Origin: a virus
Virus record (IMG/VR): IMGVR_UViG_3300037245_000987
Location: 1 to 35,587 of that record
Strand: one strand, 5' to 3'
Length of the DNA: 35,587 nt
Of this stretch, positions 4,613 through 35,077 are shown one piece after another. The number at the start of each line of letters is the position of its first letter. The first letter of the stretch is position 1. Both the position numbers and the translations under genes were made by a program. The notes beneath the pieces were generated by a model. That model worked only from the letters and a program-made list of their open reading frames with translations, did not search any database and was not told the DNA's origin.

Positions 4613-4959
4613 TGAGAAGAAATTGGAACACAATAAAAAAATTAAATCTGTGGAAAGTTAATCAATTAAACTTACCATACAGAATGTCTTTAGAGAGAGT
4701 GGATGGCAGCATTGTTATGGCTGGTGGCATAAATGTTCCTGAGACAGCGGTATCGTTATTTGCTACGGCGCATATACCATTAGCATCGGGTGATTTAATT
4801 CCTGAGTTTGGTCGGATACCACCAAGAAATTTAGCAGTGTTGATCGCAAAACATTTTAAAAATAGAATGTCCAGCTATCCATATGATGAAATATATAATA
4901 AACTGTCAAAAGATAAAAGCAAATTTTTACAAGGTAAGTATCAGGAATTAGATGAGTAA
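4612..4959 (+). CDS. Conserved-looking small protein of unknown function
   Basis: A 115-residue protein starting at ATG 4612, chosen because AGGAGAG precedes it and the start overlaps the previous stop (TAATG). The N-terminus is basic (MRRNWNTIKKLNLWK). The middle has a SLERVDGSIVMAGGINVPE stretch followed by a hydrophobic segment (AVSLFATAHIPLASGDLIPEF), and the C-terminus is helical and charged. The central stretch is not long or hydrophobic enough to be a confident membrane segment. No domain is recognised. Its neighbours are a connector candidate and the SWIM zinc-finger protein, and its stop overlaps the next start by 8 bases, so it is part of the same expression unit, probably a virion or assembly protein. 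Confidence 0.55.
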   Translation: MRRNWNTIKKLNLWKVNQLNLPYRMSLERVDGSIVMAGGINVPETAVSLFATAHIPLASGDLIPEFGRIPPRNLAVLIAKHFKNRMSSYPYDEIYNKLSKDKSKFLQGKYQELDE

Positions 4960-6661
4960 TAATTTTGATATACTAAATGAATTAACACATGCTGGTGTTG
5001 TTCAGAAGCAGTCAGACATAACAAGTCTGTTTCCAGATTTTGCAGATAAGGTCAAGGGAATAGCTGACATGGGCGGTCTGCGAATGGAGGGAATGGATCA
5101 AGACGCTTGGCACTTCAAAATTCATTCAGGTACAAAGCCTGATGTGTGGTATGATGCTAGTATAAAATGGTTGAATGTGTCAGAAGAGCTTAACAAATAT
5201 GCAGCAAATCAAAATATATGGACAAAAGATCAACAACATGTTAATTTGTTAAAACTATCTAAAGAAGTATCAACTAATGCTGATATACAATTATCATGCA
5301 CTTGTAAAGCTTTTAAATACTATGGTCCTGATTATATTCTGAGCTTGTCTCAATATAATGCTAAGTATGGTGATCCTGAACATCGTCCTCCAAATATACG
5401 AAATCCAAAACAACATGGTGCTGTGTGTAAACACCTGCACAATTTATTGAATGTTCTACCTTGGTGGAATACAACAATGGCAAGCTGGTTACGAGATAAT
5501 TGGACAGAAGAAATACGTCAAATTGAAAACAGGATTAAACAAGATCGCCCAGATCAAGGTATGTCTGAGCCTGAATTTGAACCTGCACCACGACAACCTG
5601 CACCACGACAACCTGCACCACAACAACGTCCACAAAGACCAAGACCGCATTCAACAAAGCAAGTTGCACCACAAAGTCCACGAACTCAATCAAAGGATAC
5701 TGTTACTGGCGCTGGTGATCAATGGTTTATGCCTAAATGGTCGAAACAACGAGAACGAAAATTGTATGAAGATACAACTATGGGAGACATTGCTTATTTG
5801 CCTTCTGCATTAGGTGTTGTAAGATCAGCATTAGGTGGGTTGGCAAAGAAGAAAAGACAATGGAACATTGAAGTACTTGAAGTTGAAAAGGGTAGCAAGG
5901 TTCATTTTGAAGATGCCTTATGCATTTACGTACCAAAAGAATGTTGGGAAGATTTTGCTATGATGTTTAAGGACCCACTTCATAAAGGTGTTGTTACCTT
6001 AGATGAGTATTTGCAAGAAGCCATTGATGCAGAATTAGCTGATAGAAGAAAAGAAATCGAACCACAGATCACAAGAGTATTTGAAGAGGATACATTTAGA
6101 ACGTTAGATAAATCAGTACAAATGTGGCGTGCTCGGTTTGGTATAAATAATAATAAAACTTCTGATGTTGTTGTTGCGGTTGAAAATAAAAGACGAGATG
6201 TTAGAAAACTCGTTGGTGAGTTATTTAGAAATTATGGTAATGACTTAGGAAATTTGGATTTGCTGATCAAGGCTTTTCGTAATCATCAGCCTCTGAATGC
6301 ATTTGCTGTGTTTAAAAATTATGATTATCTGTATGGTACAAGAATGTACAGTAGTTATGAAGGTGTCCAAATGGTTTTTGAAGGAACGGTTGACATGAGT
6401 TATTCTCTCGGTGAATCGATTGCTATAATTGATGGCGATGAAATTTTAGACGAATTAGAAGATTACGGTGGAGTCAGGGTAGTTAGAAATTTATTATACC
6501 CAGTAAGAAAAACATTTGATCCAGACTTTTTTGGGTACTTAGCTGAGGTTATTGAAGAACAGACAAGCTTGGGAGATGATGAGGGAGATGATGATGAAGG
6601 ATTTGATTATGAGGAAGATAAGAAAAAGAATAGAAGAAGCCAAGGACGTAAATCTATATAA
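4952..6661 (+). CDS. SWIM-type zinc-finger protein with Pro/Gln repeat linker and acidic tail
   Basis: A 569-residue protein starting at ATG 4952 behind CAGGA. The cysteine/histidine pattern C116-T-C118 ... C159-K-H161 is exactly the CxC-Xn-CxH signature of SWIM zinc fingers, which bind DNA or protein partners. Residues 60-100 before it (DVWYDASIKW...) are consistent with the strand-rich lead-in. A Pro/Gln/Arg-rich linker (about 205-250) contains three copies of PAPRQ/PAPQQ. Residues about 260-535 form a mixed alpha/beta region of unknown fold, and the tail is very acidic and then basic (EGDDDEGFDYEEDKKKNRR). It lies among head/neck genes. Possible roles are a packaged DNA-binding virion protein or an assembly factor; neither is shown by sequence alone. 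No nuclease motif is visible. Confidence 0.65.
   Translation: MSNNFDILNELTHAGVVQKQSDITSLFPDFADKVKGIADMGGLRMEGMDQDAWHFKIHSGTKPDVWYDASIKWLNVSEELNKYAANQNIWTKDQQHVNLLKLSKEVSTNADIQLSCTCKAFKYYGPDYILSLSQYNAKYGDPEHRPPNIRNPKQHGAVCKHLHNLLNVLPWWNTTMASWLRDNWTEEIRQIENRIKQDRPDQGMSEPEFEPAPRQPAPRQPAPQQRPQRPRPHSTKQVAPQSPRTQSKDTVTGAGDQWFMPKWSKQRERKLYEDTTMGDIAYLPSALGVVRSALGGLAKKKRQWNIEVLEVEKGSKVHFEDALCIYVPKECWEDFAMMFKDPLHKGVVTLDEYLQEAIDAELADRRKEIEPQITRVFEEDTFRTLDKSVQMWRARFGINNNKTSDVVVAVENKRRDVRKLVGELFRNYGNDLGNLDLLIKAFRNHQPLNAFAVFKNYDYLYGTRMYSSYEGVQMVFEGTVDMSYSLGESIAIIDGDEILDELEDYGGVRVVRNLLYPVRKTFDPDFFGYLAEVIEEQTSLGDDEGDDDEGFDYEEDKKKNRRSQGRKSI
5581..5625 (+). repeat. Three tandem 15-bp repeats encoding PAPRQ/PAPQQ
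   Basis: ACCTGCACCACGACA occurs twice exactly, followed by a third copy with one change (ACCTGCACCACAACA). The repeat encodes the linker after the SWIM domain and is a likely slippage site. Confidence 0.9.
6596..6601 (+). promoter_or_regulatory. Ribosome binding site GAAGGA supporting the start at 6609
   Basis: GAAGGA is 7 bases before ATG 6609. The other in-frame starts (TTG 6552, ATG 6576, 6579, 6588, 6591, 6594) lack a well-spaced site. All lie inside the 3' end of the previous gene. Confidence 0.5.
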
Positions 6662-21569: not shown

Positions 21570-23270
21570 GTGGCGCATAGCACAAATCCACTTTCATATA
21601 CAAACTACGACTTTGATGCTTTAAAGACGGAGTTGATAAATAGACTTAAAGTTACCGATGCTTGGAAAGATACATATGAATCCGGTACTGGTACGATGAT
21701 CATCGAATTTTATGCGTACATTGGTGAGTTGTTACTGTACTATCTTGAGAGAAGGGCAGAAGAAAGTTATCTAGCTACCGCTCAGAATAAATCAAGCGTT
21801 CTCAACATCATCAAGCTTATTCGATATTCACCAAAACGTAAAGTATCTGCGGTTGGTTCATTAAGAATAACACTTAGTGAGGCATCAAGCGCAATTGTAT
21901 ATGTTCCAAAATACACAGTGTGTCAAACAGCCAGTGGTATAAATTATATGATCAATAGAGATGTGTCGATCATATCACCAAACCTATCTGTTGTTGCTGA
22001 GGGCATACAGGGTGTTAAAATTGATTCACAATACACAGGTGATGGTTCGATATCACAATCTTTTGCAGTAAATGATACATCTGTTGAAAATACAAATTAC
22101 ACTGTTCTTGTTGAAGGTGAAGAATGGACTGAGGTATCCACATTCATTTCTTCTGTAGGTACATCAAAGCATTATAGAGTTGAACATGAAATTGATGATA
22201 CTCTAACATTCCATTTCGGAGATAATGTTAGAGGGTTAGCACCAGCTTATGCCGACACCATTATATTTAGATATGTTCGATCTGATGGTTTGGCTGGAAA
22301 TGTATATCAGCAAGATAAGATCGTAACACTTGTGGATGCTATTTATGATGAAGATAGCGTTGAGGTTGATGCAACTATAACCAATACTACAACATTTACA
22401 GCCGGTGATGATGCAGAGGATATCGAGGAAATACGATCAGAAGCACCACAGGTTTTCCAGACTGGAGACAGGGCTGTTACAAGAGCAGATTTCAGAGCTA
22501 TTTTAACAAACTACCCATCAATTGCTGATGCTAATGCATGGGGTGAGAATGAAGAAAGCCCACCAAACTACAATATGTTTAACACAGCTAAGTTGTGTAT
22601 TGTGTTAGAAGATTGGCAGCATCCAACAGATTCATTTAAAACCACATTAGGTATATATCTGTATTTGCTTTCAGTATTAACAATTAAATATGAATATCAA
22701 GAAGCAACATTTATTGAGGTTGTGCCAACTCTTGACGTGCTCGTAAACTTAAATTATTCATTAAGTGCTGTACAAGCAGAAATAGCAACCACACTTGCAG
22801 AACAGTTTACTTTAGGCACTACATCAAAATTGGGAATCTCTCAAAATTATTCTAATGTGGTTCATTCGATAGATGAACTTGCTGGTGTAAACCATCATCA
22901 TTTGGAACTTCAAATACGTAAAAATTTGACAGCCGGTGGTGGTTATGATTGGACTGGTGTTTTAGATGCTGTGCATATTAAACGAGGTAGTGTTTATGTT
23001 TATGCACAATCAGGTGGTGGTACAGATCATATTATGGCATACGATGATGAAGCAGGAAACTTTACAGATGCAAGCTCATCATATACAGTCACTGGTGATG
23101 TAGATTATGATACGGGTGTTATAGGTATTGATTTTGATCCCGATACAGATATAAGTGGTGTTTATGCCAGATATCAACAAAATTCACTTGGTGATGTTGA
23201 TGTTTTAGAAAATCAAATTTGTAAATTGTATGAAGTTGATGTAACCGCAATTGGTTATGTAGAGGAATAA
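21570..23270 (+). CDS. Baseplate wedge protein gp6 / gpJ-like
   Basis: A 566-residue protein starting at GTG 21570, with CAGGAG about 8 bases upstream. Near the N-terminus, KDTYESGTGTMIIEFYAYIG then ELLLYYLERRAEESYLATAQ is the typical beginning of baseplate J proteins. The middle has FHFGDNVRGLAPAYADTIIF, then IRSEAPQVFQTGDRAVTRAD, which is the conserved AP..f....RAVT..Df core. The C-terminal part from about 440 (GGGYDWTGVLDAVHIKRG ... YVYAQSGGGTDHIMAYDDEA) is a beta-rich extension. T4 gp6 is 660 residues. The protein forms the iris-like ring that opens to trigger contraction. The call is firm. Confidence 0.88.
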   Translation: MAHSTNPLSYTNYDFDALKTELINRLKVTDAWKDTYESGTGTMIIEFYAYIGELLLYYLERRAEESYLATAQNKSSVLNIIKLIRYSPKRKVSAVGSLRITLSEASSAIVYVPKYTVCQTASGINYMINRDVSIISPNLSVVAEGIQGVKIDSQYTGDGSISQSFAVNDTSVENTNYTVLVEGEEWTEVSTFISSVGTSKHYRVEHEIDDTLTFHFGDNVRGLAPAYADTIIFRYVRSDGLAGNVYQQDKIVTLVDAIYDEDSVEVDATITNTTTFTAGDDAEDIEEIRSEAPQVFQTGDRAVTRADFRAILTNYPSIADANAWGENEESPPNYNMFNTAKLCIVLEDWQHPTDSFKTTLGIYLYLLSVLTIKYEYQEATFIEVVPTLDVLVNLNYSLSAVQAEIATTLAEQFTLGTTSKLGISQNYSNVVHSIDELAGVNHHHLELQIRKNLTAGGGYDWTGVLDAVHIKRGSVYVYAQSGGGTDHIMAYDDEAGNFTDASSSYTVTGDVDYDTGVIGIDFDPDTDISGVYARYQQNSLGDVDVLENQICKLYEVDVTAIGYVEE

Positions 23271-23271
23271 T

Positions 23272-24330
23272 ATGAGTGGTAACTTAAATCTTGATTTGTT
23301 AATACCAGAGAAATTTCAAAAAGAAAATTTCCCTGTGCTTCCGGTATTGCTTGAAGAACTTGATGAGTTGGTATATGGTTGGGTGCAAGAAATACAAGGT
23401 CTTGCAGATTTGATCAATCCCGAAACCGTATCAAATGATTATATGCAATATCTTGCTGGCTTGCTTGGCGCTGTGTTATCTCCACAAGATACAGCTACAG
23501 AAGCGCAGCGTAGAAGTGAACTGCGCCAAGTTGTTGACTGGATTAAAATGAAGGGAACATACGCTTCGGTTCAAGTTATTGAAAACATGTTAAATACAAA
23601 CTTTGAGTTTAAAGAAATGTATACAAATAACTATGTTGATTTTGTACTTACTGATTGGTTCGTAGCTTTAAATCCAGGAGACAACCCACCAGGATTAGAT
23701 GGTTCCTATTACAATAGTCCACACTTTGGTTACATGATTAAACTTAATGTTAAACATGCAGCAAGTGGTATCTGGACTAATGATTATTTATATATACCGG
23801 ATTGGTTCCTTGATATCGATAAATACGTAGAGCGCACGCGCCCGATCCATACCGTACCGCATTACTATGTATTGCTTGAACCTGTAACTAATGATGATGG
23901 CGCAGTTATGACTATGGAAGGTGATATACACACCCAATGCAAAGGTTTGTGGCCTCAAACAAAATTGTATTTTGATGACTCAAATCAGTTTGATGATAGT
24001 GAAAATTGGGATGTGCATGACGATTCATTTTATGAAAGCATAACTAAATGGATAATTGGTACAGGCAGTAAAGGTGCAAGTCCAGACGATGGAGGTTGGA
24101 CTGATCTTGAGACTCCGGTATCAAATGGAACAATTGATATTAGAAGTATTGGCAAAGATAAAGTTGTGTGGGAATTTATTATCCCAAAACAAAATCAACT
24201 AGGAATTTCAGAACTTGGCTTGTATTCAGAAGGACCAGATACTATCAGGGTAGCCAGTTTATTCCCTGATGTAAATCTTGCTGGAAATGTTGATGTACGT
24301 GTCACTGTTACTGTAAATAGAGTATTTTAA
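23272..24330 (+). CDS. Baseplate protein gpI-like with C-terminal fibre-attachment domain
   Basis: A 352-residue protein with GAGGA before ATG 23272. The N-terminal half follows the P2 gpI pattern: LVYGWVQEIQGLADLINPET, DYMQYLAGLLGAVLSPQDTA, RSELRQVVDWIKMKGTYASV and VERTRPIHTVPHYYVLLEPV. The usual 'tR.l...i..yk.KGT..si' core is clear. After about residue 210 there is a second part, with KWIIGTGSKGASPDDGGWTD and KQNQLGISELGLYSEGPDTI, that resembles N-terminal domains of P2 gpH-type tail fibres. It thus looks like a fusion of the baseplate peripheral protein with a fibre-anchor domain. It precedes the fibre gene, which fits a docking role. Confidence 0.75.
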   Translation: MSGNLNLDLLIPEKFQKENFPVLPVLLEELDELVYGWVQEIQGLADLINPETVSNDYMQYLAGLLGAVLSPQDTATEAQRRSELRQVVDWIKMKGTYASVQVIENMLNTNFEFKEMYTNNYVDFVLTDWFVALNPGDNPPGLDGSYYNSPHFGYMIKLNVKHAASGIWTNDYLYIPDWFLDIDKYVERTRPIHTVPHYYVLLEPVTNDDGAVMTMEGDIHTQCKGLWPQTKLYFDDSNQFDDSENWDVHDDSFYESITKWIIGTGSKGASPDDGGWTDLETPVSNGTIDIRSIGKDKVVWEFIIPKQNQLGISELGLYSEGPDTIRVASLFPDVNLAGNVDVRVTVTVNRVF

Positions 24331-24345
24331 TAAGGAGAGTAGATT

Positions 24346-25704
24346 ATGCCAGCCGATGTTGGAAATCAAGAAGTCACAATTAAATTTTATGACGCAGTAG
24401 ATTCATTTGAGTCTAATGAGCGGTTCAGGGATATACGTCCAACAGGTATATACAAGGGTGGTTATTTAACGAAAACTAATGATACCACAATAACTGTATC
24501 ACCTGCTGTAGCTGAAATACGAAGTAAAATAACAAGCCCTTACTATCAGGTCAAGGTTGAAACCACTACTACAGTAACTGGTATTACTGTTGGTTCGGGT
24601 ACTCCCTACGTAGTGCTTCGATGGTCATATACAGAAGTTGCAGCAGATGACTTTATGGAAGTACTTGGTGTAGCTTCACCAGACACCTTTGATATTGTTG
24701 TAGGAAAGTGTAATTACTCCGGCGCAACGTTAACTGGGTTTGATTATGCTGAACGTACTAATCCACATATGATGGATTTATTTTTAAAGATTGAACCAGA
24801 AGAAACACCGTCTATGTATGTGCGAATACGTGGTGGTAGAATCCAATTAAATGATCAAACTGTTCAAATAACTGATCAATTGAGTGGTGCATTTTCTGCC
24901 CCCGGAGGTGGTGATACAGTTGGTGCTGTCTATGTTGATAGCGATGGTGCGATACAAGTGTCATCAGACTTTACACAAACAGGTGAACTCGTGTTAGCTG
25001 AGATTGCATTGACAAATGGACAGACAGAGATTACGGTAGATGAGATTTCAGATGTTCGATCATTCTTGACACCTGCTATTATTCCTGATGATACTACTAT
25101 ACGGTTTAATTCGTCAACTGGTAAGTTGGAACAGGTTCCTCACACTCATGCACAATTGCATGATCAGGCACATGGACATGATCAGTTGCATGATTCAACA
25201 CATATCCACGGTGACTTGCATAGCCAATCTCATACACATGCACTGACTGCTCGATATTTGCACGCTTACAATGATCAGATTCAATGTGTTGAACAGTCAA
25301 CTTGGACTAAGCTTACATTTGCAGTTACTTCAAAGAATTCAGGTATAACATTCTCAAGCAGTCAAATAACGTTGTCTGCCGGTAAAGCATATAACATAAG
25401 TTATGTTGCACAGTTTGAGTCAACTAATTCTAAATCACCTAGAGCAAGATCAAGACTCAAGGTGGTATCCGGTGATACAAGCTGGGACTTGGAAGAGAAT
25501 ACGTTTGTATTGCAAGAAGCTGGTTTAGGTATATATGAAGGAGAAGATGTAGCAAACTCATGGTCTGGTTGGATTATACCTAACCAAGCAACGGTTATTA
25601 GACTTGAAGCAATCACAAGAGACCCAGAAGATATGGACAACTGGGGTGAATGCAGATATGCTCATATCAATGTGTTCCAAAGTGAAGTTGGTGGAGTCGC
25701 TTAA
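24346..25704 (+). CDS. Tail fibre / tailspike-like protein with periodic histidine repeat and jelly-roll-like tip
   Basis: A 452-residue protein with TAAGGAGAG upstream of ATG 24346. Residues 1-260 are beta-rich (FRDIRPTGIYKGGYLTKTND near the N-terminus, probably for baseplate attachment). Residues 266-298 have a strict decapeptide pattern HxHxxLHxxx repeated three times and ending in HTH. In T4 gp37, HxH motifs bind iron inside the fibre tip, so a metal-bound trimeric stalk is likely here. Residues about 310-452 (WTKLTFAVTSKNSGITFSSS ... GWIIPNQATVIRLEAITRDP) look like a C1q/jelly-roll head that could bind a receptor. The gene ends the tail cluster; its stop overlaps the first glycan gene. 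Confidence 0.72.
   Translation: MPADVGNQEVTIKFYDAVDSFESNERFRDIRPTGIYKGGYLTKTNDTTITVSPAVAEIRSKITSPYYQVKVETTTTVTGITVGSGTPYVVLRWSYTEVAADDFMEVLGVASPDTFDIVVGKCNYSGATLTGFDYAERTNPHMMDLFLKIEPEETPSMYVRIRGGRIQLNDQTVQITDQLSGAFSAPGGGDTVGAVYVDSDGAIQVSSDFTQTGELVLAEIALTNGQTEITVDEISDVRSFLTPAIIPDDTTIRFNSSTGKLEQVPHTHAQLHDQAHGHDQLHDSTHIHGDLHSQSHTHALTARYLHAYNDQIQCVEQSTWTKLTFAVTSKNSGITFSSSQITLSAGKAYNISYVAQFESTNSKSPRARSRLKVVSGDTSWDLEENTFVLQEAGLGIYEGEDVANSWSGWIIPNQATVIRLEAITRDPEDMDNWGECRYAHINVFQSEVGGVA
25141..25239 (+). repeat. 30-bp coding repeat giving HxHxxLHxxx decads
   Basis: Three full ten-codon units (starting at 25141, 25171 and 25201) are followed by a fourth HTH at 25231-25239. Histidines fall at residues 266, 268, 272, 276, 278, 282, 286, 288, 292, 296 and 298, a perfect 2-4-4 spacing. 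Confidence 0.9.
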
Positions 25705-26393
25705 TGAGATTCAACAATCAGTACCTACATGAAATTGTAGCGCCAAATCTCCTTGAGAATAGAGCCTGTTATATCATTGGTGGTGGGCCGTCATTAATAA
25801 ACTTCTCACCATCAAGATTGGCCGGTAAATATGTTCTCGGTGTTAACAAAGCATTTGCAAAATTCAATCCGCAAATGAATTGGTCAAACGATAAGATTTT
25901 TGACGATATGATGATCACACCACCTGATGATGACGTAGAATTAAAGCAAATGAGTTATGTATGGAAACATGGTTATAATGGTTTAAAAGTTTTTCGTGAA
26001 CAAATAGATCGAAAGAATTATAGGAACGGTGAGTGTCTAGTAAAGATGCTCATCGAACCAACTGTTAGTTTTGATATAAGTCAAGGTATTTATTGTGGTG
26101 GTAATTCTGGCTTTGGCGCAATGATGTTAGCTGTTGCACTTCGAGCTAATCCAATATACCTTCTTGGATTTGACCTTAAAGTAAATGTACAAGAGGATAG
26201 AACGCACTGGCACAATGGTTATCCTGGGCAAACTCCACGATTACTACTTAGAAAAATGCAAGGATTTAAAGAACCGTTTGAGTTGCTTGCACCGAAGTTG
26301 GCTGATCTTGGAATCAAGATAATAAACTTAGGACCAGACAGTGATTTGAAGTGTTTTCCCGAACAAAATGTGGAAGATATATTACATAAATAA
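25704..26393 (+). CDS. GT42/DUF115 (MptE-like) Rossmann-type protein, putative glycosyltransferase, copy 1
   Basis: A 229-residue protein; ATG overlaps the fibre stop (TAATG). Residues 20-31 have the nucleotide-binding start CYIIGGGPSL, followed by a strand YVLGVNKAF (43-51), and later the pair GGNSGFGAMMLAVALRANP with IYLLGFDL (132-158). This 'GxGPSL ... N ... sG..ml..A...g...iyllG.D' layout is that of DUF115/MptE-like and GT42 (CstII-like sialyltransferase) proteins. Transfer of an acidic or amino sugar from a CMP-type donor is possible, but activity cannot be proven. The next gene is a diverged paralogue. Being coupled to a fibre gene suggests action on virion proteins. Confidence 0.6.
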   Translation: MRFNNQYLHEIVAPNLLENRACYIIGGGPSLINFSPSRLAGKYVLGVNKAFAKFNPQMNWSNDKIFDDMMITPPDDDVELKQMSYVWKHGYNGLKVFREQIDRKNYRNGECLVKMLIEPTVSFDISQGIYCGGNSGFGAMMLAVALRANPIYLLGFDLKVNVQEDRTHWHNGYPGQTPRLLLRKMQGFKEPFELLAPKLADLGIKIINLGPDSDLKCFPEQNVEDILHK

Positions 26394-26416
26394 TAGAAGT
26401 GTTTGACATTTCAACT

Positions 26417-26422
26417 GGAGAG
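26417..26422 (+). promoter_or_regulatory. Ribosome binding site GGAGAG fixing the start at 26430
   Basis: GGAGAG is 7 bases before ATG 26430. An in-frame TTG at 26403 has no site and was rejected as the start. Confidence 0.7.
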
Positions 26423-26429
26423 AGTAGTC

Positions 26430-27134
26430 ATGTCTAAAAGTAAAAAAGTATTTGTCATCGGTGGTGGTCCATCTTTAGTTGGCTTTGATTTTGAGAAGCT
26501 ACGAGACAAAGATACCATTGTTGTCAATCACGCAATATTCGATGTACCTGAACCAAACTATTTTGTGACTATGGATTATCTATGGTTAAACAAATCAGGT
26601 ATCCAACCTAAAACAGGAGACTTCGATTTCAATCGTAGAGACCTGTTCCTAAACACCACAGCAGAAAAGTATTTTATACTCGGATTCAGTCCTCCACGTC
26701 TTGAACATCGTGGGGTAATGATGTATTATGACATTGAATGGGAACAAGTATATGATCTAAGGCTGTTCGACCATGCAATCATAGCATCCAAATATGGTGG
26801 TATGGGTACTATTATGGAGGATTTCCGATGTGCAAGTGATAGTGGTTATTCAGCTTTGCAATTGGCCGTGATCCTTGGATACGAGGAAATATATCTACTT
26901 GGTATGGATTATACAGTCAGCAACAACATAACACATTACAAAGAAGAATGTAACAGGAACAATGCTCAATACTATCTATTACAGAAATTGAATCTGTTCT
27001 TAGATGCATATCCACAAGCCTTTGTAGACATTGAACAGAAAACAAGGTGTCAGGTAACTATTTGTTCTGACATAAGCCGTTTACGTGCATATCGTCCTTA
27101 TTTATCCACTGAGGAGGCTCTGAGCAATGCGTAG
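26430..27134 (+). CDS. GT42/DUF115 (MptE-like) Rossmann-type protein, putative glycosyltransferase, copy 2
   Basis: 234 residues from ATG 26430 with GGAGAG upstream. It repeats the layout of the preceding gene: KKVFVIGGGPSLVGFDFEKL at 5-24, TIVVNHAIFDVPEPNYFVTM, then CASDSGYSALQLAVILGYEE and IYLLGMDYTV (about 134-163), with H169 following in NNITHYKEE. In CstI/II-type sialyltransferases the region after the 'tG.D' strand carries catalytic His/Tyr residues, so H169 is a candidate, by inference. Overall identity with copy 1 is low outside these motifs, so they are old paralogues or independent gains. It overlaps the next gene by 8 bases. Confidence 0.6.
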   Translation: MSKSKKVFVIGGGPSLVGFDFEKLRDKDTIVVNHAIFDVPEPNYFVTMDYLWLNKSGIQPKTGDFDFNRRDLFLNTTAEKYFILGFSPPRLEHRGVMMYYDIEWEQVYDLRLFDHAIIASKYGGMGTIMEDFRCASDSGYSALQLAVILGYEEIYLLGMDYTVSNNITHYKEECNRNNAQYYLLQKLNLFLDAYPQAFVDIEQKTRCQVTICSDISRLRAYRPYLSTEEALSNA

Positions 27135-27930
27135 AGTGTCAATTGTTATGACGTACCATAACCGGCAGCAACAGTTATTTTTAACTCTCAAGTCTATACA
27201 GAGGCAGTATGACGATGACATTGAGATCATAATAATCGATGATGCGAGTGATAATGAATGTACAATGGCAAAACCCGTAGCTGATCAGTTCCATGATATG
27301 GATATTAAAGTAACACATATCCCATCAGAGAACAAATGGTGGACTAACCCATCTGTACCTTATAACATGGGATTCAAACAAGCTACTGGAGAGATAATTG
27401 TTATAACCAATTCTGAAGGTTTTCACATTGGAAACACCATAGAATACATAAGAAGCAGACTAAATAGTAGGAACTATTTATCATTCTCGGCGTATACGAC
27501 ATTACAGCAAAATCATAATGAACTGACTGCTATTACAGGGTGTAAAGCATCAGCGCTGGATAGTACCATGCTGAATCTACTTAAACCGATGCAGCCAAAG
27601 CAATGGTATAACCATCCAATGCTGCGTCCTACAGGATATCATTTCCTGTCAGCTATCACCAAAGAGAACTTAGATCAAATAGGTGGATTCAATGAAATAT
27701 TTGCCAGTGGTTATTGTTTTGATGATGATGAGTTTGTGTGGCGCATTCGTGAAGCAGGAATATATATTGATATTATAGACCCAACAATGTTTATGGTTGT
27801 CCATCAATGGCATTCAAAGAATCCTGCTATGCGTGGTGGCTGTCCTTTATGGGAAAAGAATAGACAGATATGGATTAGTATCACAGGAGGTAAACGATTA
27901 GATGATAGATTACCGGAGGCACGAAATTAA
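27127..27930 (+). CDS. GT2-type glycosyltransferase
   Basis: A 267-residue protein with GAGGAGG (27111-27117) before ATG 27127. N-terminal RRVSIVMTYHNRQQQLFLTL and EIIIIDDASDN (D38-D39) are the nucleotide-binding start of GT-A family 2 enzymes. PSVPYNMGFKQATGEIIVIT leads into NSE (95-97) where a DxD is usual; this variant is a notable change. The acceptor half has GGFNEIFASGYCFDDDEFVW (about 202-221), where the DDDE would give the general base, followed by a conserved histidine in MVVHQWHSKN. It would add a sugar to a glycan or protein in the cytoplasm. The exact sugar is unknown. No membrane segment is seen. Confidence 0.78.
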   Translation: MRRVSIVMTYHNRQQQLFLTLKSIQRQYDDDIEIIIIDDASDNECTMAKPVADQFHDMDIKVTHIPSENKWWTNPSVPYNMGFKQATGEIIVITNSEGFHIGNTIEYIRSRLNSRNYLSFSAYTTLQQNHNELTAITGCKASALDSTMLNLLKPMQPKQWYNHPMLRPTGYHFLSAITKENLDQIGGFNEIFASGYCFDDDEFVWRIREAGIYIDIIDPTMFMVVHQWHSKNPAMRGGCPLWEKNRQIWISITGGKRLDDRLPEARN

Positions 27931-28776
27931 ATGAAGAAGATTCCTAAAATCGCTTACTTCTATTGGGGAGCAAAGGTACTTCCGTACTTGAGGTACATGA
28001 CCTTATACTCCTTTAAGAAGTTTAACCCTGATTGGAACGTAGTATTATTTCGGCCTGTATGTCTAACAGAGGGTGTAACCTGGCATTCCCACGAGAACGA
28101 AGAGCCTATTGATACTGAGGATTATACAGATCGTTTACCCGATCTTGATATCCAAGTGCGCTTATTCGATATGGATACAATCAATTACTCCAATGGTCTA
28201 CCGGAAGTCCTAAAATCCGATCTGCTTCGTCTCTATCTCCTTTCGACCACTGGTGGTCTTTGGAGCGACATAGACATACTATACTTTAGACCAATAGCTC
28301 ATACACTTAAAGACACCTGCAAGCAAGCATATTTCTGTTATAGGCGTGGTGGAGTCACACAAGATGACACGCCAAAGAATGGTCCCCTGTATCATAGCAT
28401 CGGATTCCTTGCAGCAGAACCGGAATGTACTTTTTTCAACCGGCTCTTGCTAAACGCAAGAGCCATGTTAAACAGCGGTGAATACCAGTCTGTAGGAAGT
28501 CCTTACTATGGTATGTTTATAAATATACAGAATCCAAATATTTTTAACATAGATATTAACATGGTGTATCCAAGTAGAGCGCCAGAAAGCATGTTTAAAT
28601 CACCCTTCGGTTGTCACATATATGAAATAAGAGATTTAACAATAGGCTGGCACTGGTATGGAGGACATCCAACAGCAGGTCAGTACCAAAATCTGATGAC
28701 CGAAAGCACATACAAAAATTACGATAACATCATATCACATATCATAGGAAAGATAAATAGTGGTGAGCAAATCTAA
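27931..28776 (+). CDS. GT32-like glycosyltransferase (DXD sugar-binding family)
   Basis: A 281-residue protein starting directly after the previous stop, with GGAGG upstream. N-terminal KIPKIAYFYWGAKVLPYLRY and FNPDWNVVLF are typical of the OCH1/GT32 type. The core KSDLLRLYLL (95-104) followed by TGGLWSDIDILYFRPI (107-122) contains the DID metal/nucleotide-sugar motif (113-115). Further down, the SPYYGMFINIQN region and GWHWYGGHP, with its histidines, match the C-terminal part of the family. Base use in the first half seems somewhat richer in G+C than in its neighbours, which could reflect separate acquisition. The sugar is often mannose or galactose in this family, but is not predictable here. 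Confidence 0.8.
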   Translation: MKKIPKIAYFYWGAKVLPYLRYMTLYSFKKFNPDWNVVLFRPVCLTEGVTWHSHENEEPIDTEDYTDRLPDLDIQVRLFDMDTINYSNGLPEVLKSDLLRLYLLSTTGGLWSDIDILYFRPIAHTLKDTCKQAYFCYRRGGVTQDDTPKNGPLYHSIGFLAAEPECTFFNRLLLNARAMLNSGEYQSVGSPYYGMFINIQNPNIFNIDINMVYPSRAPESMFKSPFGCHIYEIRDLTIGWHWYGGHPTAGQYQNLMTESTYKNYDNIISHIIGKINSGEQI

Positions 28777-29636
28777 TGCTTGAGGTGGAGGTTAAAAAGA
28801 ATTTTGAATGGGATTGTACAGAGAACAAGCTTACAATTTTTGTACCTTGCTATAAAAACATAGACACTGTACGATTCACAATCGAACACATTTCAACAAT
28901 TCTTGAACCTTGGGATTATACCATCATAATAGGCAATGATGGATTCCATCACCATTGGGGTGATCTATCTGAGGCATTGATTCATAGAGATCATCCTGTA
29001 CCTGTAAAATACTTTAGCTTATTGCACACTGAACAGCAACCACGAAATAGTTGCTTTATACGAAATTATGCTATGAAACGTTGCATGTCTGAATACTTTA
29101 TGCAAAAAGATTGTTCAGTAGTTCTTGAGGGTGATTTTCCACTGTATGCTATAAGAACTTGTGAGAAAGGATATTTCTGGCGAGCAGGTAATATAACTGT
29201 GGTTAGTAAAGAAGATACTTATAAATGTGTGGAAAACAATGATTTGCTTGATTTAGGCACAAGTCTTTATCATCGGGTAGAACCTGTCAAAGCTACAAGT
29301 GTTGAAGAACTTAAAAACCATTTAATAATAAGGCATGGTCAAGTAAATTTTTCAACATATTTTCAGTATGCTTTTTGTGCTCCAACACAGTTTTTAAAAG
29401 GCATACATGGATATGATGAAGATTACAGATGGTACGGGTATGAGGATACCGATATGTTTTGTAGACTCACAGCACTTGGTAAAATAATTAAACCGGATTA
29501 TGATACGTATGCTCATCATCTTTGGCATCCGAGTACTGTGAATGAAGAACAACTTATACCAATGAGAGAATTGTTTAGATCAAAAAATCCTGAGCAAACT
29601 CTTAGAAATCCAGAGGGTTGGGGTAGAGGAAAATAA
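28776..29636 (+). CDS. GT-A glycosyltransferase, copy 1 of a tandem pair
   Basis: A 286-residue protein (ATG overlaps the previous stop). After KLTIFVPCYKN it has TIIIGNDGFHHHWG (about 49-62), a QPRNSCFIRNYAMKRC helix (88-103) and FMQKD (108-112) at the metal-binding position. It then has the acceptor motif GYDEDYRWYGYEDTDMFCRL (212-231), typical of GT2/GT7 C-terminal domains where E-D contacts the acceptor. The C-terminal HHLWHPSTVNEEQ supplies the usual histidine. The protein is soluble. The following gene has all these motifs in the same order, so the two arose by duplication. Confidence 0.75.
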   Translation: MLEVEVKKNFEWDCTENKLTIFVPCYKNIDTVRFTIEHISTILEPWDYTIIIGNDGFHHHWGDLSEALIHRDHPVPVKYFSLLHTEQQPRNSCFIRNYAMKRCMSEYFMQKDCSVVLEGDFPLYAIRTCEKGYFWRAGNITVVSKEDTYKCVENNDLLDLGTSLYHRVEPVKATSVEELKNHLIIRHGQVNFSTYFQYAFCAPTQFLKGIHGYDEDYRWYGYEDTDMFCRLTALGKIIKPDYDTYAHHLWHPSTVNEEQLIPMRELFRSKNPEQTLRNPEGWGRGK

Positions 29637-30485
29637 ATGGCTGATATACTTGAAGTAAAACAAAATTTCAATTGGGAAGATACAAAACGCAAGTTGATGT
29701 TGTTCATTCCATGCTACGGTAATAAAGAATTGGTTGAATATGCTATAAGCAAACTTAGCCATGAAGATATAGGTACAGGCACTTTCACTATTGTAATTGG
29801 AAACGATGGTACACATATTGATTGGTCTCATTTAAACACAGGTCCTTTGCATATTTACTATTTCACATTATTACATAATGCAGAGCAGCCTAGAAACGGT
29901 GCATTCATTCGCAACTATGCATTAAAACATTGTCAAGCAGAACTCTTTATGCAAAAGGATGGTGAGGTTGTGCTTGAGGGTAATTGCATATTCAATGCTT
30001 ACAAGACTCTTGAACGAGGATTTTTATGGAGGCCAGGAAATGTATATGTTCTTGATGAAAGAAACTCTAATAAATACATGGAGCAGCACTCAGTAAATAA
30101 TATAGATTTTATTATTCAAAAACGAATAGAACCAGTTAGCCCTATAGATGTTTTAACTACTAAAGAACATATTATTGCAGTGGATGGTGATATTAACTTT
30201 ACATCCTTTTTCCACTATGCATATTGTGCTAAGACAGCAGATTTGCGAGCAATACATGGATACGATGAAGATTATAAATTTTATGGTTTTGAAGACACCG
30301 ATATGTTTTGTAGACTAACGGCTACGAATAAAATATTTAAGGTTGATTACAAAAGTAGTGCTATACATTTGTATCATCCTAGCACTGTAAACAGAGAACA
30401 AATTATGACAATGGGTAAATTATTTCAACGTAAAAATCCTTTGAGTGTGGTAAGAAATGATGAAAACTGGGGAGAGGGTGTATGA
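29637..30485 (+). CDS. GT-A glycosyltransferase, copy 2 of a tandem pair
   Basis: A 282-residue protein starting right after copy 1. It shares KLMLFIPCYGN, TIVIGNDGTHIDW, QPRNGAFIRNYALKHC, FMQKD, GYDEDYKFYGFEDTDMFCRL and YHPSTVNREQ with copy 1, at equal spacing, while the segments between differ (for example LERGFLWRPGNVYVLDERNS). The pattern suggests two enzymes with the same chemistry but different acceptors or linkages, adding successive sugars. Its stop overlaps the next start as ATGA. The sugar specificity is unknown. Confidence 0.75.
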   Translation: MADILEVKQNFNWEDTKRKLMLFIPCYGNKELVEYAISKLSHEDIGTGTFTIVIGNDGTHIDWSHLNTGPLHIYYFTLLHNAEQPRNGAFIRNYALKHCQAELFMQKDGEVVLEGNCIFNAYKTLERGFLWRPGNVYVLDERNSNKYMEQHSVNNIDFIIQKRIEPVSPIDVLTTKEHIIAVDGDINFTSFFHYAYCAKTADLRAIHGYDEDYKFYGFEDTDMFCRLTATNKIFKVDYKSSAIHLYHPSTVNREQIMTMGKLFQRKNPLSVVRNDENWGEGV

Positions 30486-31360
30486 TAGATGTAAATGAAA
30501 ATGAATTTTTCAGATTGGTTAGAGAACATCCAACAGTATCATTCAATGCCGATTCCTGGACAAAAGAAATTTACCCAGATCGAACAGAGGAACAAAAAGT
30601 TTTAGTTGCGATGGAACCTTATAATGGTATGCCACACAATTGGGATGCTGAGAAGATAAAAAACTTTAAAACCTACGTGTGTTGGAACAGCAAGTTTTTA
30701 AATAGCCTAGCAACTGACCCTGCCATAGTTAAGTCTGGTACAGAGTTAGTGTATCTCAGAGGAAATGTGTTCTGCAATCATTATAATGAATTGGCTTCTT
30801 GGCCTGATTATGATTCTCGAATAAAAGGTATTTGCGCATTAAATAAACTGTATGACACCGGACATAAGGATTGTGGTGATATCATAATGGAACGTGAACC
30901 AATGATGCAGGCTGTTGACTTATCAACTGATTTACGTGCTGATGTTTATGCTCCCACACCTTGGGGTGGTGATCTATATCAAGGTCCTGATGGTTCACCT
31001 ATACATCACAGTCATATAAAACAACTGGAATTGATTTCAAACTATCGATTTATGTTAGCATTTGAATGTATATACCACCCGATCTGGTCCTACGATTTTG
31101 TAACAGAACGAATATTTAATGCTTTCAAATGTAAAACTGTTCCTGTGTATTGGGGCGGTTGGAACATAGAACAGTTTATACCAGCAAATATTTTTATTGA
31201 CATGCGTAAATTTGCAGATTTCTATGATGTAAGTAAGTATATGGAAAATATGTCTAAAGCCCAATGGGAAGATATGACTCAGAAAGCATATATTTGGGGT
31301 TTAAAAAATGATACGGGTAGTATGAAACATTTTGAAAATTTGATAGAGAGATATGAGTAA
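30482..31360 (+). CDS. GT10-like fucosyltransferase
   Basis: A 292-residue protein. The C-terminal half has the core of alpha-1,3/4-fucosyltransferases: NYRFMLAFECIYHPIWSYDF with VTER (187-210), NAFKCKTVPVYWGG (213-226) and NIEQFIPANIFIDMRKFADF (228-247). In the family this block binds GDP-fucose, and the pattern 'yKf.laFEns....YvTEKl..al..g.vPVywG......fiP..SfI' is well known. The N-terminal half (1-180) is acceptor-binding and not conserved. It would transfer fucose or a related GDP-sugar; no GDP-fucose synthesis gene is seen in the window, so the donor would come from host or from elsewhere in the phage. Overlap ATGA with the previous gene. Confidence 0.78.
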   Translation: MIDVNENEFFRLVREHPTVSFNADSWTKEIYPDRTEEQKVLVAMEPYNGMPHNWDAEKIKNFKTYVCWNSKFLNSLATDPAIVKSGTELVYLRGNVFCNHYNELASWPDYDSRIKGICALNKLYDTGHKDCGDIIMEREPMMQAVDLSTDLRADVYAPTPWGGDLYQGPDGSPIHHSHIKQLELISNYRFMLAFECIYHPIWSYDFVTERIFNAFKCKTVPVYWGGWNIEQFIPANIFIDMRKFADFYDVSKYMENMSKAQWEDMTQKAYIWGLKNDTGSMKHFENLIERYE

Positions 31361-32228
31361 CATGAGTATTTCCTGCTTAATGATTACAACCGATAAACCT
31401 GAACGACTAGATATGACATTGAAAGCCATGCATTCAATTGATAGAAATTCACAATCTTATTTTAAAGAGAAAGTGTTATCAATTGACGAGCTTGGCTTAG
31501 ATAACGAATATACCTTGGGACTGTTACGGCAAGCAGTCACGTCTATGGGCTGGATAGCGGTATCCGGCCCATGTTCTGGTCAACGAGGCATGGTTAATAA
31601 TATGCTGAGAGGACTTCCTCTCATTACAAGTGATCTGTTGTTCTATTGTGAGGATCATGTTATTTATGAAAAGATACCATCAGAAGATGTTATAAACAGT
31701 ATCTTTAATAGAAAAGCTCAAGTAAGATGGATAAATCTTAATACTCATATTGTTGAAGATAATTTGATCGATAAAATGGTGAATCCTAATGTGGAAGAAA
31801 TTCTAAGGAAAGAACAAGAGTGTTTAAAATATATTCGTACTGACAGTAATTACTTGAGTTATGGTTCAGATTGTTTTTTACTAAAATCAGAGGAATTGGC
31901 CGATGATTATTTTTTGAATTTTCCTGCGATAATAACAACAACTAAAATATTTAGCATACTTCTTACTGCCGGTTGTCAAAATTACCATGATGTTGGAATT
32001 GAAATTGGGTTTACAAAAGCATGGTTTGATTGCAGATTTCCAGCTAAGTTTAAGGTAGCTATTTATGTTAAACCAGAAGCAAGAGTTACTAAGCCATTAA
32101 CCTTTGATGAATTACATTATTATGCTTGGATGCGATTTAGAAATAATGATTTAAGTAAGTTGCATGATTCAATAGCTCAACACGATCATACACCAGATAA
32201 CCCAAAACAAAGAAATGCTTTCTTTTAG
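31353..32228 (+). CDS. GT2-like glycosyltransferase of unknown specificity
   Basis: A 291-residue protein whose start overlaps the fucosyltransferase end by 8 bases (ATG 31353; ATG 31362 is an alternative). It has SISCLMITTDKPERLDMTLK at the start and LPLITSDLLFYCEDHVIYEK (88-107), where E100-D101 takes the metal-site position. The rest includes LSYGSDCFLLKSEEL, a QNYHDVGIEIGFTKAWFDCR segment and a His/Asp-rich tail (SIAQHDHTPDNPKQ). The fold resembles GT-A enzymes, but the match is weaker than for the neighbours. Its place in the row of glycan genes supports the call. Confidence 0.55.
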   Translation: MSNMSISCLMITTDKPERLDMTLKAMHSIDRNSQSYFKEKVLSIDELGLDNEYTLGLLRQAVTSMGWIAVSGPCSGQRGMVNNMLRGLPLITSDLLFYCEDHVIYEKIPSEDVINSIFNRKAQVRWINLNTHIVEDNLIDKMVNPNVEEILRKEQECLKYIRTDSNYLSYGSDCFLLKSEELADDYFLNFPAIITTTKIFSILLTAGCQNYHDVGIEIGFTKAWFDCRFPAKFKVAIYVKPEARVTKPLTFDELHYYAWMRFRNNDLSKLHDSIAQHDHTPDNPKQRNAFF

Positions 32229-32239
32229 GAGAAACGATA

Positions 32240-32914
32240 ATGCCTTGTGATAGAAGTACCCCACGATGTGCAGGCAAACATGACTGCTGTCATAAAATTC
32301 TCTTAGAGATTCTTGATTTTACAGTAGAAAAACTTAATTCAAAGAATATTCCATATTGGTTAACATACGGAACATTACTTGGTGCTGTTCGAGAACACAA
32401 AATGATACCGTGGGATGAGGATATTGATATCGGTATTTTGATAAACGATTTACCATCGCTGTTATTATTAAGTCAAAAGTTTCAAAGGGCTGGTTATGGT
32501 TGGGGTGTCGGTACTAATGCTAATTATATAGTTGGTAAGATAAACATCTATACATCCTTAATAAACGTTTTACATCTTGACGTATCAGTGTATGCCAATG
32601 TTATGGAAGGTAATGAACGATATGTTGAAGGTGTTATGTGGCCAGGCTGTAGAACTCCACTTGATAATGTTCTACCTAAAAACTTAATTGATATTGAATT
32701 TGAAGGCCGAACAGTCAAAGCACCATCAAATCCAGGGAATTTACTTGAAAATTTTTATGGTCCTGACTGGCGAACACCAAAAGTAAAATCGTGGATTAAA
32801 AAAAGAATTAAAGAAGATGAATGCCGAGACCCAGAACTGCTCAAGATCATGGAGAACGCAGGCTGGTATGATTGGGAGCCAGGAAGGAGACTGGAAAAAA
32901 GGAGAAATAAGTAA
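32240..32914 (+). CDS. LicD-family phosphotransferase (phosphocholine or polyol-phosphate transferase)
   Basis: A 224-residue protein with AGGAGA before ATG 32240. The hallmark of LicD/fukutin proteins is clear: YWLTYGTLLGAVREHKMIPW (39-58) followed by DEDIDIGI (59-66), with G44, G48, R51 and the D61-x-D63 metal pair of a nucleotidyltransferase-like fold. LicD enzymes move phosphocholine from CDP-choline to sugars; fukutin relatives move ribitol phosphate from CDP-ribitol. The N-terminus is Cys-rich (C3, C10, C16, C17). The next gene, overlapping by one base, encodes a cytidylyltransferase able to make a CDP-alcohol, strongly suggesting one pathway. The alcohol is not determined by sequence. 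Confidence 0.82.
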   Translation: MPCDRSTPRCAGKHDCCHKILLEILDFTVEKLNSKNIPYWLTYGTLLGAVREHKMIPWDEDIDIGILINDLPSLLLLSQKFQRAGYGWGVGTNANYIVGKINIYTSLINVLHLDVSVYANVMEGNERYVEGVMWPGCRTPLDNVLPKNLIDIEFEGRTVKAPSNPGNLLENFYGPDWRTPKVKSWIKKRIKEDECRDPELLKIMENAGWYDWEPGRRLEKRRNK

Positions 32915-33336
32915 TGTTTGCAAACAGACGAGTAGTGTATTGTGCTGGTACGTGGGACTTGTTTCACATAGGCCACTTAGAAATGATTAAAAAGGCAAGG
33001 CAACTTGCTGATGATGGAATTTTAATAATAGGTGTGTCAACAGACAAACTTGTTGAGAAGTACAAAGGGGTAAAACCATTCGTTCCTTATGGAGAACGTT
33101 TGAAAATAATACAAGCTTTGAAGTATCCTGACTTAGTTGTTCAGCAGTTAAAGCAATTTGATGTTGATCGTATGCAAGAATTATTTGTTGATGAGGTTGT
33201 TCTTGGAAATGATTGGCTTGTGAAAATGTCTCCAGAGTTACAAAAGTTAATAAACCATGTACATGTATGTTTTAAACCACTTACAGAGGGTGTATCAACC
33301 AGTGACATCAAATACAGATTGAAGGAATTACAATGA
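32914..33336 (+). CDS. Glycerol-3-phosphate / phosphocholine-type cytidylyltransferase
   Basis: A 140-residue protein, the size of TagD/GCT enzymes, coupled to the LicD-like gene by TAATG. It carries YCAGTWDLFHIGHLEMIKKA with the HIGH nucleotide-binding motif (18-21), IGVSTDKLVEKYKG (39-52; K-x-K-G type), PYGERLKIIQAL (58-69), VVLGNDW (95-101) and TEGVSTSDIK (124-133), matching the RTxGISTT signature. It would make CDP-glycerol, CDP-choline, CDP-ethanolamine or a related CDP-alcohol from CTP. This is the expected donor for the LicD-like enzyme. Which phospho-alcohol is used needs structure comparison. Confidence 0.85.
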   Translation: MFANRRVVYCAGTWDLFHIGHLEMIKKARQLADDGILIIGVSTDKLVEKYKGVKPFVPYGERLKIIQALKYPDLVVQQLKQFDVDRMQELFVDEVVLGNDWLVKMSPELQKLINHVHVCFKPLTEGVSTSDIKYRLKELQ

Positions 33337-34433
33337 AAACAGTGATGACTATAACAGGCATCAGACCGGACTTCATCAGGATGAGTGAAGTGTTTAAACA
33401 ATTGGATGCTAATTTTAACCATATACTTGTTCATAGTGGTCAACACTATGATCGCATGATGTCAGATGTATTCTTTGATGAATTAGAAATACGTGAGCCT
33501 GATTACAATTTACATATTGGAGGTCCGGGCATTGAACACTATAGACAAACAGGAAGACTAAGCGGTAAGATAATTGAATTGCTTAGAAAAGAAAAAATAC
33601 ATCCAGATATTATTCTGTTCCTTGGTGATTCAAACTCAGTACTATGCGCAGTACCTTTAGCAAAAGAAGGATACCAGATCGGACACATCGAGGCAGGTAT
33701 GAGAAGTTATGATCGAAGAATGCTTGAGGAAATAAACAGAGTTGTTTGTGATCATGTAAGCAATCATTTGTTTGTATATCACGAAGAATATGAAGCGCAA
33801 GCATTAGCAGAGGGAATACCTGCTGAGAGTATTCATGTAGTTGGCAATACAATTGTGGAACCTTGTCTTAATGCATCTTATCCTTGGCTTTTTGTCGATG
33901 ACAAAGCAGACGATCAAATACTGCTGGATATCCATAGACCAGAGAATTTCAATGACTCTGATAGACTTCATAATATATTAGACTTTGCTTCATATTGTAG
34001 GGAAACTTATAACGTTCCTGTTAGAATGCTTAACTTTGGCCGAACACAAAAAGCATTAGAAGAAATGGGAATAAATTCTACAAGATTGGAAATGTATGAT
34101 ATTGAACCAATCGATCTTATGAGTTATAAAACATTCTTAGTTCAGCAATATCATTCACTGTTTATAATTTCAGATTCAGGAACCGCACAAGAGGAACCAG
34201 CTTTGTTGAAAACACCGGTGATTGTTCCAAGAGACTTTACTGAACGTCCTCAGTCGGTAGACTATGGTTGTTCTTATATGCTTAACGTAAATGACAAACG
34301 AGGTTTTAATGCTGCTGAGGGTTGGATGTTAAAGAAATTGCATTTTCCGAATCTTAACCCTATAGATAGTTCATGGCTTGGTGATGGTCAAACATCGAGA
34401 AGTATTGTTAGAATACTCAAGGAGGTATTATGA
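33333..34433 (+). CDS. UDP-GlcNAc 2-epimerase, non-hydrolysing (WecB/MnaA-like)
   Basis: A 366-residue protein, the family's usual length, overlapping the previous gene as ATGA. It starts VMTITGIRPDFIRMSEVFKQ and has HSGQHYD (34-40), FLGDSNSVL (96-104), HIEAGMRSYDRRMLEEINR (118-136), VVGNTIVEP (169-177), DIHRPENF (199-206), and near the end ISDSGTAQEEPALLKTPVIV and FTERPQS. The catalytic set of the WecB family (D99, E120, E132/E133, H201) appears to be present. It converts UDP-GlcNAc to UDP-ManNAc. The usual partner dehydrogenase (WecC) is not in the window, so UDP-ManNAc may be used directly by a phage glycosyltransferase. Confidence 0.88.
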   Translation: MKTVMTITGIRPDFIRMSEVFKQLDANFNHILVHSGQHYDRMMSDVFFDELEIREPDYNLHIGGPGIEHYRQTGRLSGKIIELLRKEKIHPDIILFLGDSNSVLCAVPLAKEGYQIGHIEAGMRSYDRRMLEEINRVVCDHVSNHLFVYHEEYEAQALAEGIPAESIHVVGNTIVEPCLNASYPWLFVDDKADDQILLDIHRPENFNDSDRLHNILDFASYCRETYNVPVRMLNFGRTQKALEEMGINSTRLEMYDIEPIDLMSYKTFLVQQYHSLFIISDSGTAQEEPALLKTPVIVPRDFTERPQSVDYGCSYMLNVNDKRGFNAAEGWMLKKLHFPNLNPIDSSWLGDGQTSRSIVRILKEVL

Positions 34434-35077
34434 CACAGTATCCAGATTTTACCCCAAACCCAACATTTATAAATGGTTTCAATAGAGCATTACGTAATTT
34501 GGGTGGTGACGCTGGAGACTTTTTAGAGTTTGGTGTTTATGGTGGTCGTACATTTGCATGGCTGGCTGAACAATTACTAAGCAAAAGTCCCAAATCTATC
34601 TTACGTGGATTTGATTCTTGGCAAGGAATACCAAAAGAAACAGAAGGTTTGTTTTGTCCACCAAGACATGCTGAGGGCATGATGTCTTTAGGTAAAATTT
34701 ACGTCATAGAAAGACTTGAAAATCTTGGTATAAGGGTTGGTGTTGATAAACGTTTTAGATTTGTTGATGGCTTTTTCTGTGATAGTTTAACGCAAAAAGT
34801 ACAGAAAAATATTAAAAATTTAGCATTTGTAAATATTGATGTTGACATACATAAATCAACAGTTGAATTATTGGATTTCATTACACCATTAGTTCATGCT
34901 GGAACGGTTTTGTTTTTTGATGACTGGAAAGACCCAGACGATGCTAAGATATGTAATGAAAAATGGGGAGAACATTTAGCGTTTGAGCAATGGTTAGAAA
35001 AAAATCCAAACATTGTTTCAGCCGAATATGATATTAACTTCCTTAATCAACGTTGGATAGAAATTTTAAAGGTGTAA
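34430..35077 (+). CDS. TylF/MycF-like SAM-dependent O-methyltransferase
   Basis: A 215-residue protein overlapping the epimerase gene by ATGA, with GGAGG upstream. It has the SAM-binding motif FLEFGVYGGRTFAWLAEQL (31-49), GFDSWQGIPKE (60-70), FVNIDVDIHKSTVELLDF (133-150) and LFFDDW (161-166). The last two give the DxD/DD metal ligands typical of macrocin O-methyltransferase (TylF) types that methylate sugar hydroxyls. Its place among glycosyltransferases suggests it methylates a sugar in the same glycan, which can protect or cap the chain. The exact target is unknown. Confidence 0.8.
   Translation: MTQYPDFTPNPTFINGFNRALRNLGGDAGDFLEFGVYGGRTFAWLAEQLLSKSPKSILRGFDSWQGIPKETEGLFCPPRHAEGMMSLGKIYVIERLENLGIRVGVDKRFRFVDGFFCDSLTQKVQKNIKNLAFVNIDVDIHKSTVELLDFITPLVHAGTVLFFDDWKDPDDAKICNEKWGEHLAFEQWLEKNPNIVSAEYDINFLNQRWIEILKV

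Follow-up and report, generated by a model that had tools for sequence, protein, structure and literature searches.

The 452-aa protein encoded at positions 24346–25704 (+ strand) of the viral contig studied here is a modular tail fibre, composed of an N-terminal shoulder, a histidine-rich segment, and a TNF/C1q-like head. We consider it probable (at roughly 0.64) that the array within this segment is an inserted triple-stranded shaft, with six-histidine metal sites at four HxH motifs and three-histidine layers between them. The window, that is, the whole stretch of DNA that was analysed, comprises the 35,587 nucleotides of IMG/VR virus record IMGVR_UViG_3300037245_000987; the virus is represented by this 35.6-kb contig, which is possibly a fragment.

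The array (25141–25239, + strand; residues 266–298) reads HTHAQLHDQA (25141–25170), HGHDQLHDST (25171–25200), HIHGDLHSQS (25201–25230), and HTH (25231–25239), and thus consists of three full HxHxxLHxxx units followed by the HxH of a fourth. Its histidines, at residues 266, 268, 272, 276, 278, 282, 286, 288, 292, 296, and 298, account for 11 of the 14 in the whole 452-aa protein, and the four HxH motifs start at residues 266, 276, 286, and 296. An earlier note on this DNA had described eleven histidines following an exceptionless 2-4-4 spacing over 33 residues, which is exact in the ORF translation; its division of the segment into HxHxxLHxxx units stands for the three full units, all with Leu at position 6, and does not extend to the fourth, which runs HTHALTARYLH. 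Strictly periodic placements (period of at most 11) make up 4e-7 of all possible placements of 11 histidines in 33 residues. All 11 histidines also fall at odd positions of the array, giving one face of HHQHQHHQHSHHDHQHH and an opposite face of TALDAGDLDTIGLSST; because the period of 10 is even and the three histidine positions are odd, all of them would lie on one face if the strand were extended. Such parity has a one-in-six chance of arising for three positions in a decad, and Gln, Asp, or Ser also share the histidine face (positions 5 and 9). The same-face arrangement may be taken as supportive, not decisive.

Comparison of the three full units points to constraint on His and Leu. None of the 12 comparisons at His and Leu positions differs, as against 15 of 18 at the remaining positions (Fisher p ~1e-5, for comparisons that are not independent of one another). 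The His and Leu codons show four differences between full units, all synonymous, and the other codons share 35% DNA identity, compared with 28% expected for random codons of the fibre gene. The array is therefore not a fresh DNA duplication. The His/Leu pattern may represent either old repeats held by selection or a pattern that selection itself has built. The Tandem Repeats Finder listing does not include the array. Elsewhere in the window, a 651-aa protein (1316–3271) contains many degenerate HGGTYDVDVADSISVAE-type repeats with a DNA period of 69 bases, and a 15-base tandem repeat (AACCTGCACCACGAC; 5580–5627) within the gene at 4952–6661 encodes PAPRQ repeats.

The identity of the protein as a tail fibre or receptor-binding protein is based on its ORF, gene order, and N-terminal-domain relatives. 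A gp6-like baseplate wedge gene (Baseplate_J; 21570–23270, + strand; PHROG 219, E 8e-56; PF04865) is followed by a Tail_P2_I-like baseplate gene (23272–24330, + strand; PF09684, E 3e-6) and then by the fibre gene. The tail-fibre assignment made earlier from the letters alone is borne out by these genes just upstream, by two N-terminal-domain relatives that match PHROG 24210 ("tail fiber protein"), and by the shoulder and head, whose folds resemble those of trimeric fibres and heads. No Pfam Collar match was found in the window fibre, and homology to the T4 gp37/collar family was not detected.

The conserved N-terminal shoulder, a putative baseplate-anchoring domain (residues 1–243; 24346–25074, + strand), is delimited by identity, model, and fold matches. 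The AlphaFold model of the fibre was built on a 20-row alignment, and the predictions are of monomers; within it, most of residues 34–240 are confidently modelled. Residues 3–141 match the HFTV1 tail fibre (Z 9.8) and the p2 receptor-binding protein (Z 8.6), while residues 146–240 match the shoulder of the cyanophage A-1(L) long tail fibre (Z 9.3) and residues 143–239 match Mtd (Z 8.3). All four Z values are of moderate size; by Foldseek on its own, A-1(L) ranks first (E 4e-4). The array has a pLDDT of ~35 in the monomer and yields no confident model. The C-terminal head, a jelly roll of the TNF/C1q-like type (residues 304–452; 25255–25701, + strand), was recognised through AlphaFold, Foldseek, and VIA. 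Modelled apart, it reaches a pLDDT of 78 and a pTM of 0.77. Foldseek hits include BxpB (E 2e-6) and the binding domain (CBD) of the A-1(L) short tail fibre (E 1e-5), as well as ExsF, TNF, and C1q, and VIA gives Z values of 12.6–14.2 to TNF, C1q, BxpB/ExsF, and the A-1(L) CBD. The HFTV1, Mtd, and p2 fibres or receptor-binding proteins and the TNF/C1q and BxpB/ExsF folds are homotrimers. The A-1(L) fibre is also a homotrimer (PMC10966104). Since both flanking folds are homotrimeric in known members, three copies of the histidine segment would be brought side by side.

A first search with the whole fibre protein found no relative, and tblastn against named phages with the whole protein and the His segment, where low-complexity filtering may hide the segment, gave no match. 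Relatives were reached through the wedge gene first, and then with the fibre N-terminus as query. The resulting family shares residues 1–243, with 41% and 32% identity to the proteins of loci L121 and L124. HxH was found in none of the complete N-terminal-domain relatives. In the alignment, the relative in L129 shares shoulder and head but lacks exactly a 38-residue segment: its ...GQLKVVDP-VYL... aligns to ...GKLEQVP-(38 residues)-YL... in the window. The insert relative to L129 spans 25141–25254 (+ strand; alignments and head comparison) and is preceded by a junction, AIIPDDTTIRFNSSTGKLEQVP (25075–25140, + strand), predicted to form a beta hairpin (strands 252–255 and 260–263 in the AlphaFold model), beyond which relatives diverge in their C-terminal modules. 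A similar PDxxTIxxNxxGKL stretch occurs in L129, L143, L144, and L152. The absence of HxH from the relatives, together with the absence of the segment from L129, identifies the array as an insert at a module junction. The His segment is absent from all relatives found, and alignment evidence on the array comes from its internal repeats alone.

The gene neighbourhood on the 3' side varies among these loci. The gene run after the fibre in the window (25704–35077) resembles a glycosylation island, with two MptE-like/DUF115-type genes, one PHROG sialyltransferase-like, Glycos_transf_2 and galactosyltransferase-like genes, a TylF-like methyltransferase, and, by eye, UDP-GlcNAc epimerase-like and cytidylyltransferase-like genes. 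Glycosylation-type genes lie similarly 3' of the fibre in L121, L124, L126, and L129; the corresponding region of L127 contains, in place of glycosyltransferases, a repeat protein and at least three genes with CxxxCxxC-type motifs that on inspection look radical-SAM-like. In L126 and L129 the fibre gene is immediately succeeded by a paralogous second one (L126:5142–6263; L129:5290–6438); the window has one.

Comparison with the arrays of other viruses comes from IMG/VR, which was scanned for three period-10 HxH preceded by A/S/T and followed by a polar or small residue. The sample, drawn from long ORFs with limited histidine content, comprises at least 136 units from at least 29 loci, in which A/S/T at position 10 is present by construction. 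Among the matches listed, class A decads (HxHxxY[AS]xx[ST]) number 50 units at 9 loci, and class B decads (HxHx[IVTF]xxxGx) 86 units at 20 loci. Period-10 HxH arrays of up to eight consecutive units occur in L174, L187, L183, L234, L197, and L282, and also in L178, L270, L274, and L175. In PHROG comparisons, tail or tail-fibre families account for most of the proteins scanned, and families of unknown function alone for some. Read from sequence, these data indicate that period-10 HxH arrays are a widespread, ordinary though little-described part of phage fibres. Class A (L174, L187, L183, L234, and L282) resembles the window in its period of 10, in HxH at positions 1 and 3, in a mostly hydrophobic residue at position 6, and in A/S/T at position 10 (imposed by the search), but has Tyr6 in 46 of 50 units and Ala or Ser at position 7 in 48 of 50, where the window has Leu6 and His7 in all three. 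Class B (L178, L270, L274, L271, and others, in tail and collar fibres of phages) likewise consists of period-10 HxH arrays but, unlike the window, has a hydrophobic residue or Thr at position 5 and Gly or Ala at position 9. By score, the units of the window lie closer to class A than to class B, with the class A pattern broken at positions 6 and 7.

The third histidine of the HxHxxLH motif occurs in none of the 136 class A and class B units among the matches listed. A search for HxHxxLHxxx in other phage fibres had been proposed as a check; as run here, it found no case in those units and, among the matches listed from IMG/VR, only antisense artefacts. The plain HxHxxLHxxx DNA pattern gave readable matches mainly in simple-repeat reading frames and was therefore restricted; the adjacent-unit scan for the third histidine also imposed specific residues at position 8 and position 10. 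The restricted two-unit HxHxx[hydrophobic]H pattern had no match in IMG/VR, and a loosened version had four, all antisense to Met-rich genes. Among 84,980 genomes, the two-unit pattern had five matches, in bacterial genomes, none of them recognised as a fibre; two lie in His-rich extensions of metal-handling-type proteins, one HypB-type with a CobW domain (L138) and one an ABC ATPase (L141). No CobW/HypB or ABC ATPase domain lies beside the His stretch in the window fibre. As far as these comparisons reach, HxH decads are common in phage fibres, and what is unusual is the third histidine, accompanied by Leu where Tyr is usual. PDB sequence searches with the whole fibre protein, the His segment, and class A arrays returned no match to the fibre or segment and no solved structure with a period-10 HxH array; the hits of a class B query, chiefly to designed propellers of the Cake series and to a quinoprotein, were judged spurious.

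In the shaft that we propose, the short insert would run between the trimeric baseplate-anchoring shoulder and the trimeric TNF/C1q-like head, its three chains parallel and in register, with the trimeric domains holding both ends. Each of the four HxH would contribute six imidazoles at the three-fold axis to an octahedral Fe (or Zn, Ni) site. The third histidine of each decad (272, 282, and 292), exactly midway between HxH sites, would form a three-His layer, which in an extended chain lies at a distance of four residues from each flanking HxH and may coordinate an additional metal or pack through hydrogen bonding. Leu6 would point the opposite way and pack on neighbouring strands. Such a metal ladder would fix the register, stiffen the shaft, and carry the head outward from the baseplate. 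The layered sites suggested in the earlier note, with two histidines from each chain and further histidines between, are compatible with the same-face parity and with a third histidine that lies exactly halfway between HxH sites. Within this shaft reading, we infer the trimer, the inward-facing histidines, the metal, and the mechanical role; the third histidine of each decad could instead be solvent-exposed. A coiled coil was set aside by reasoning, as a 10-residue histidine repeat gives no usual heptad or hendecad seam. A more specific form, in which a cassette acquired at the shoulder/head junction makes a continuous column of four six-His octahedral and three three-His sites, with up to seven metals in ~33 residues per chain, is offered tentatively and seems to us rather less likely than its opposite. 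If true, this alternating column would imply denser metal loading than in HxH-only fibres.

The main rival is a flexible, solvent-exposed His-rich linker with loose metal or surface binding and no ordered metal core, which might serve as a metal sponge, a pH-responsive spacer, or a host-surface adhesive. The low confidence of the monomer model over the array (pLDDT ~35), the two His-rich extensions of metal-handling-type proteins among the five genome matches (L138 and L141), and the fact that relatives dispense with the segment are all in keeping with it. However, strict spacing and an invariant Leu are unexpected in a loose tail, the HxH decad recurs across many fibres, and the position of the segment between two domains of trimeric fold would force its copies together; we regard the linker as improbable, if worth taking seriously. 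The shaft could also form without metal, its histidine column packing by hydrogen bonding or stacking with Gln/Asp and water in a purely structural role. Gln, Asp, or Ser do share the His face, and HxH alone is no proof of metal, but HxH sites in solved trimeric fibres and spikes (T4 gp37, R1/R2 pyocin, P2, and phi92) hold metal (PMC6116203, PMC4901313), and this version appears less likely than the linker.

Much further down the scale, an iron-bait or "Ferrojan horse" fibre, in which a siderophore receptor of the host would recognise the iron that the fibre carries, has been proposed for marine-phage HxH fibres (PMC11705849). Nothing links the window phage to a siderophore receptor, the array lies between shoulder and head and not at the tip, and receptor binding is more likely the task of the head; this reading is therefore very unlikely. 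Coincidence or a recent low-complexity DNA expansion, devoid of protein-level meaning, would be in line with the many pattern matches elsewhere that are simple-repeat or antisense noise, but is hardly credible given the mixed histidine codons, the little DNA identity at other codons, a constraint restricted to His and Leu, and a long intact ORF in fibre position.

Several characterised fibres provide a frame for the proposed shaft. The T4 gp37 needle (2XGF) carries seven irons along its trimer axis, and plaques are lost when H929 or H931 is changed to Ala (PMC6957217); its HxH motifs were computed here at positions 742, 883, 915, 929, 966, 980, 989, and 998. As an analogy, the comparison with gp37 drawn in the earlier note holds good (PMC6957217, PMC6116203): both proteins have an HxH series, but the spacing in gp37 is irregular or 9, with no His between and with a collar-type domain. 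The R1/R2 pyocin shafts (6CL5, 6CL6) are one-way trimeric shafts with a single axial, octahedral HxH iron before a C-terminal beta-sandwich head (PMC6116203), although another group did not decide between Fe, Ni, and Zn (PMC6363177); they differ from the window in having no decads, no third histidine, and a different head. In the receptor-binding protein of Staphylococcus phage phi11, six histidines from three chains likewise hold one axial iron in the stem of a trimeric fibre (PMC4901313), but with the spacing H-x7-H, unlike HxH, where helical bundles meet and with no beta shaft.

The long tail fibre gp34 of Anabaena phage A-1(L) (8KEC; L286:27257–28396) shares with the window a shoulder fold (Z 9.3) followed by an HxH array, with five HxH at 252, 261, 270, 279, and 288. 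It was solved as a trimer by cryo-EM, and its arm was called similar to T4 gp37 (PMC10966104); neither "histidine" nor "metal" occurs in the main text of that paper. Unlike the window, gp34 has a period of 9, two histidines per unit, a gp37-like arm, and no TNF/C1q head. The HxH runs of both solved precedents (T4 gp37 and A-1(L) gp34) thus have a period of 9, compared with 10 in the window, while our survey suggests that period-10 arrays are widespread in phage fibres and, by sequence, lack a solved structure. With 33 histidines per trimer, the window array would extend the range of HxH metal shafts in phage fibres by a cassette-like variant, and offers a simple test case for the effect of a third histidine between HxH sites.
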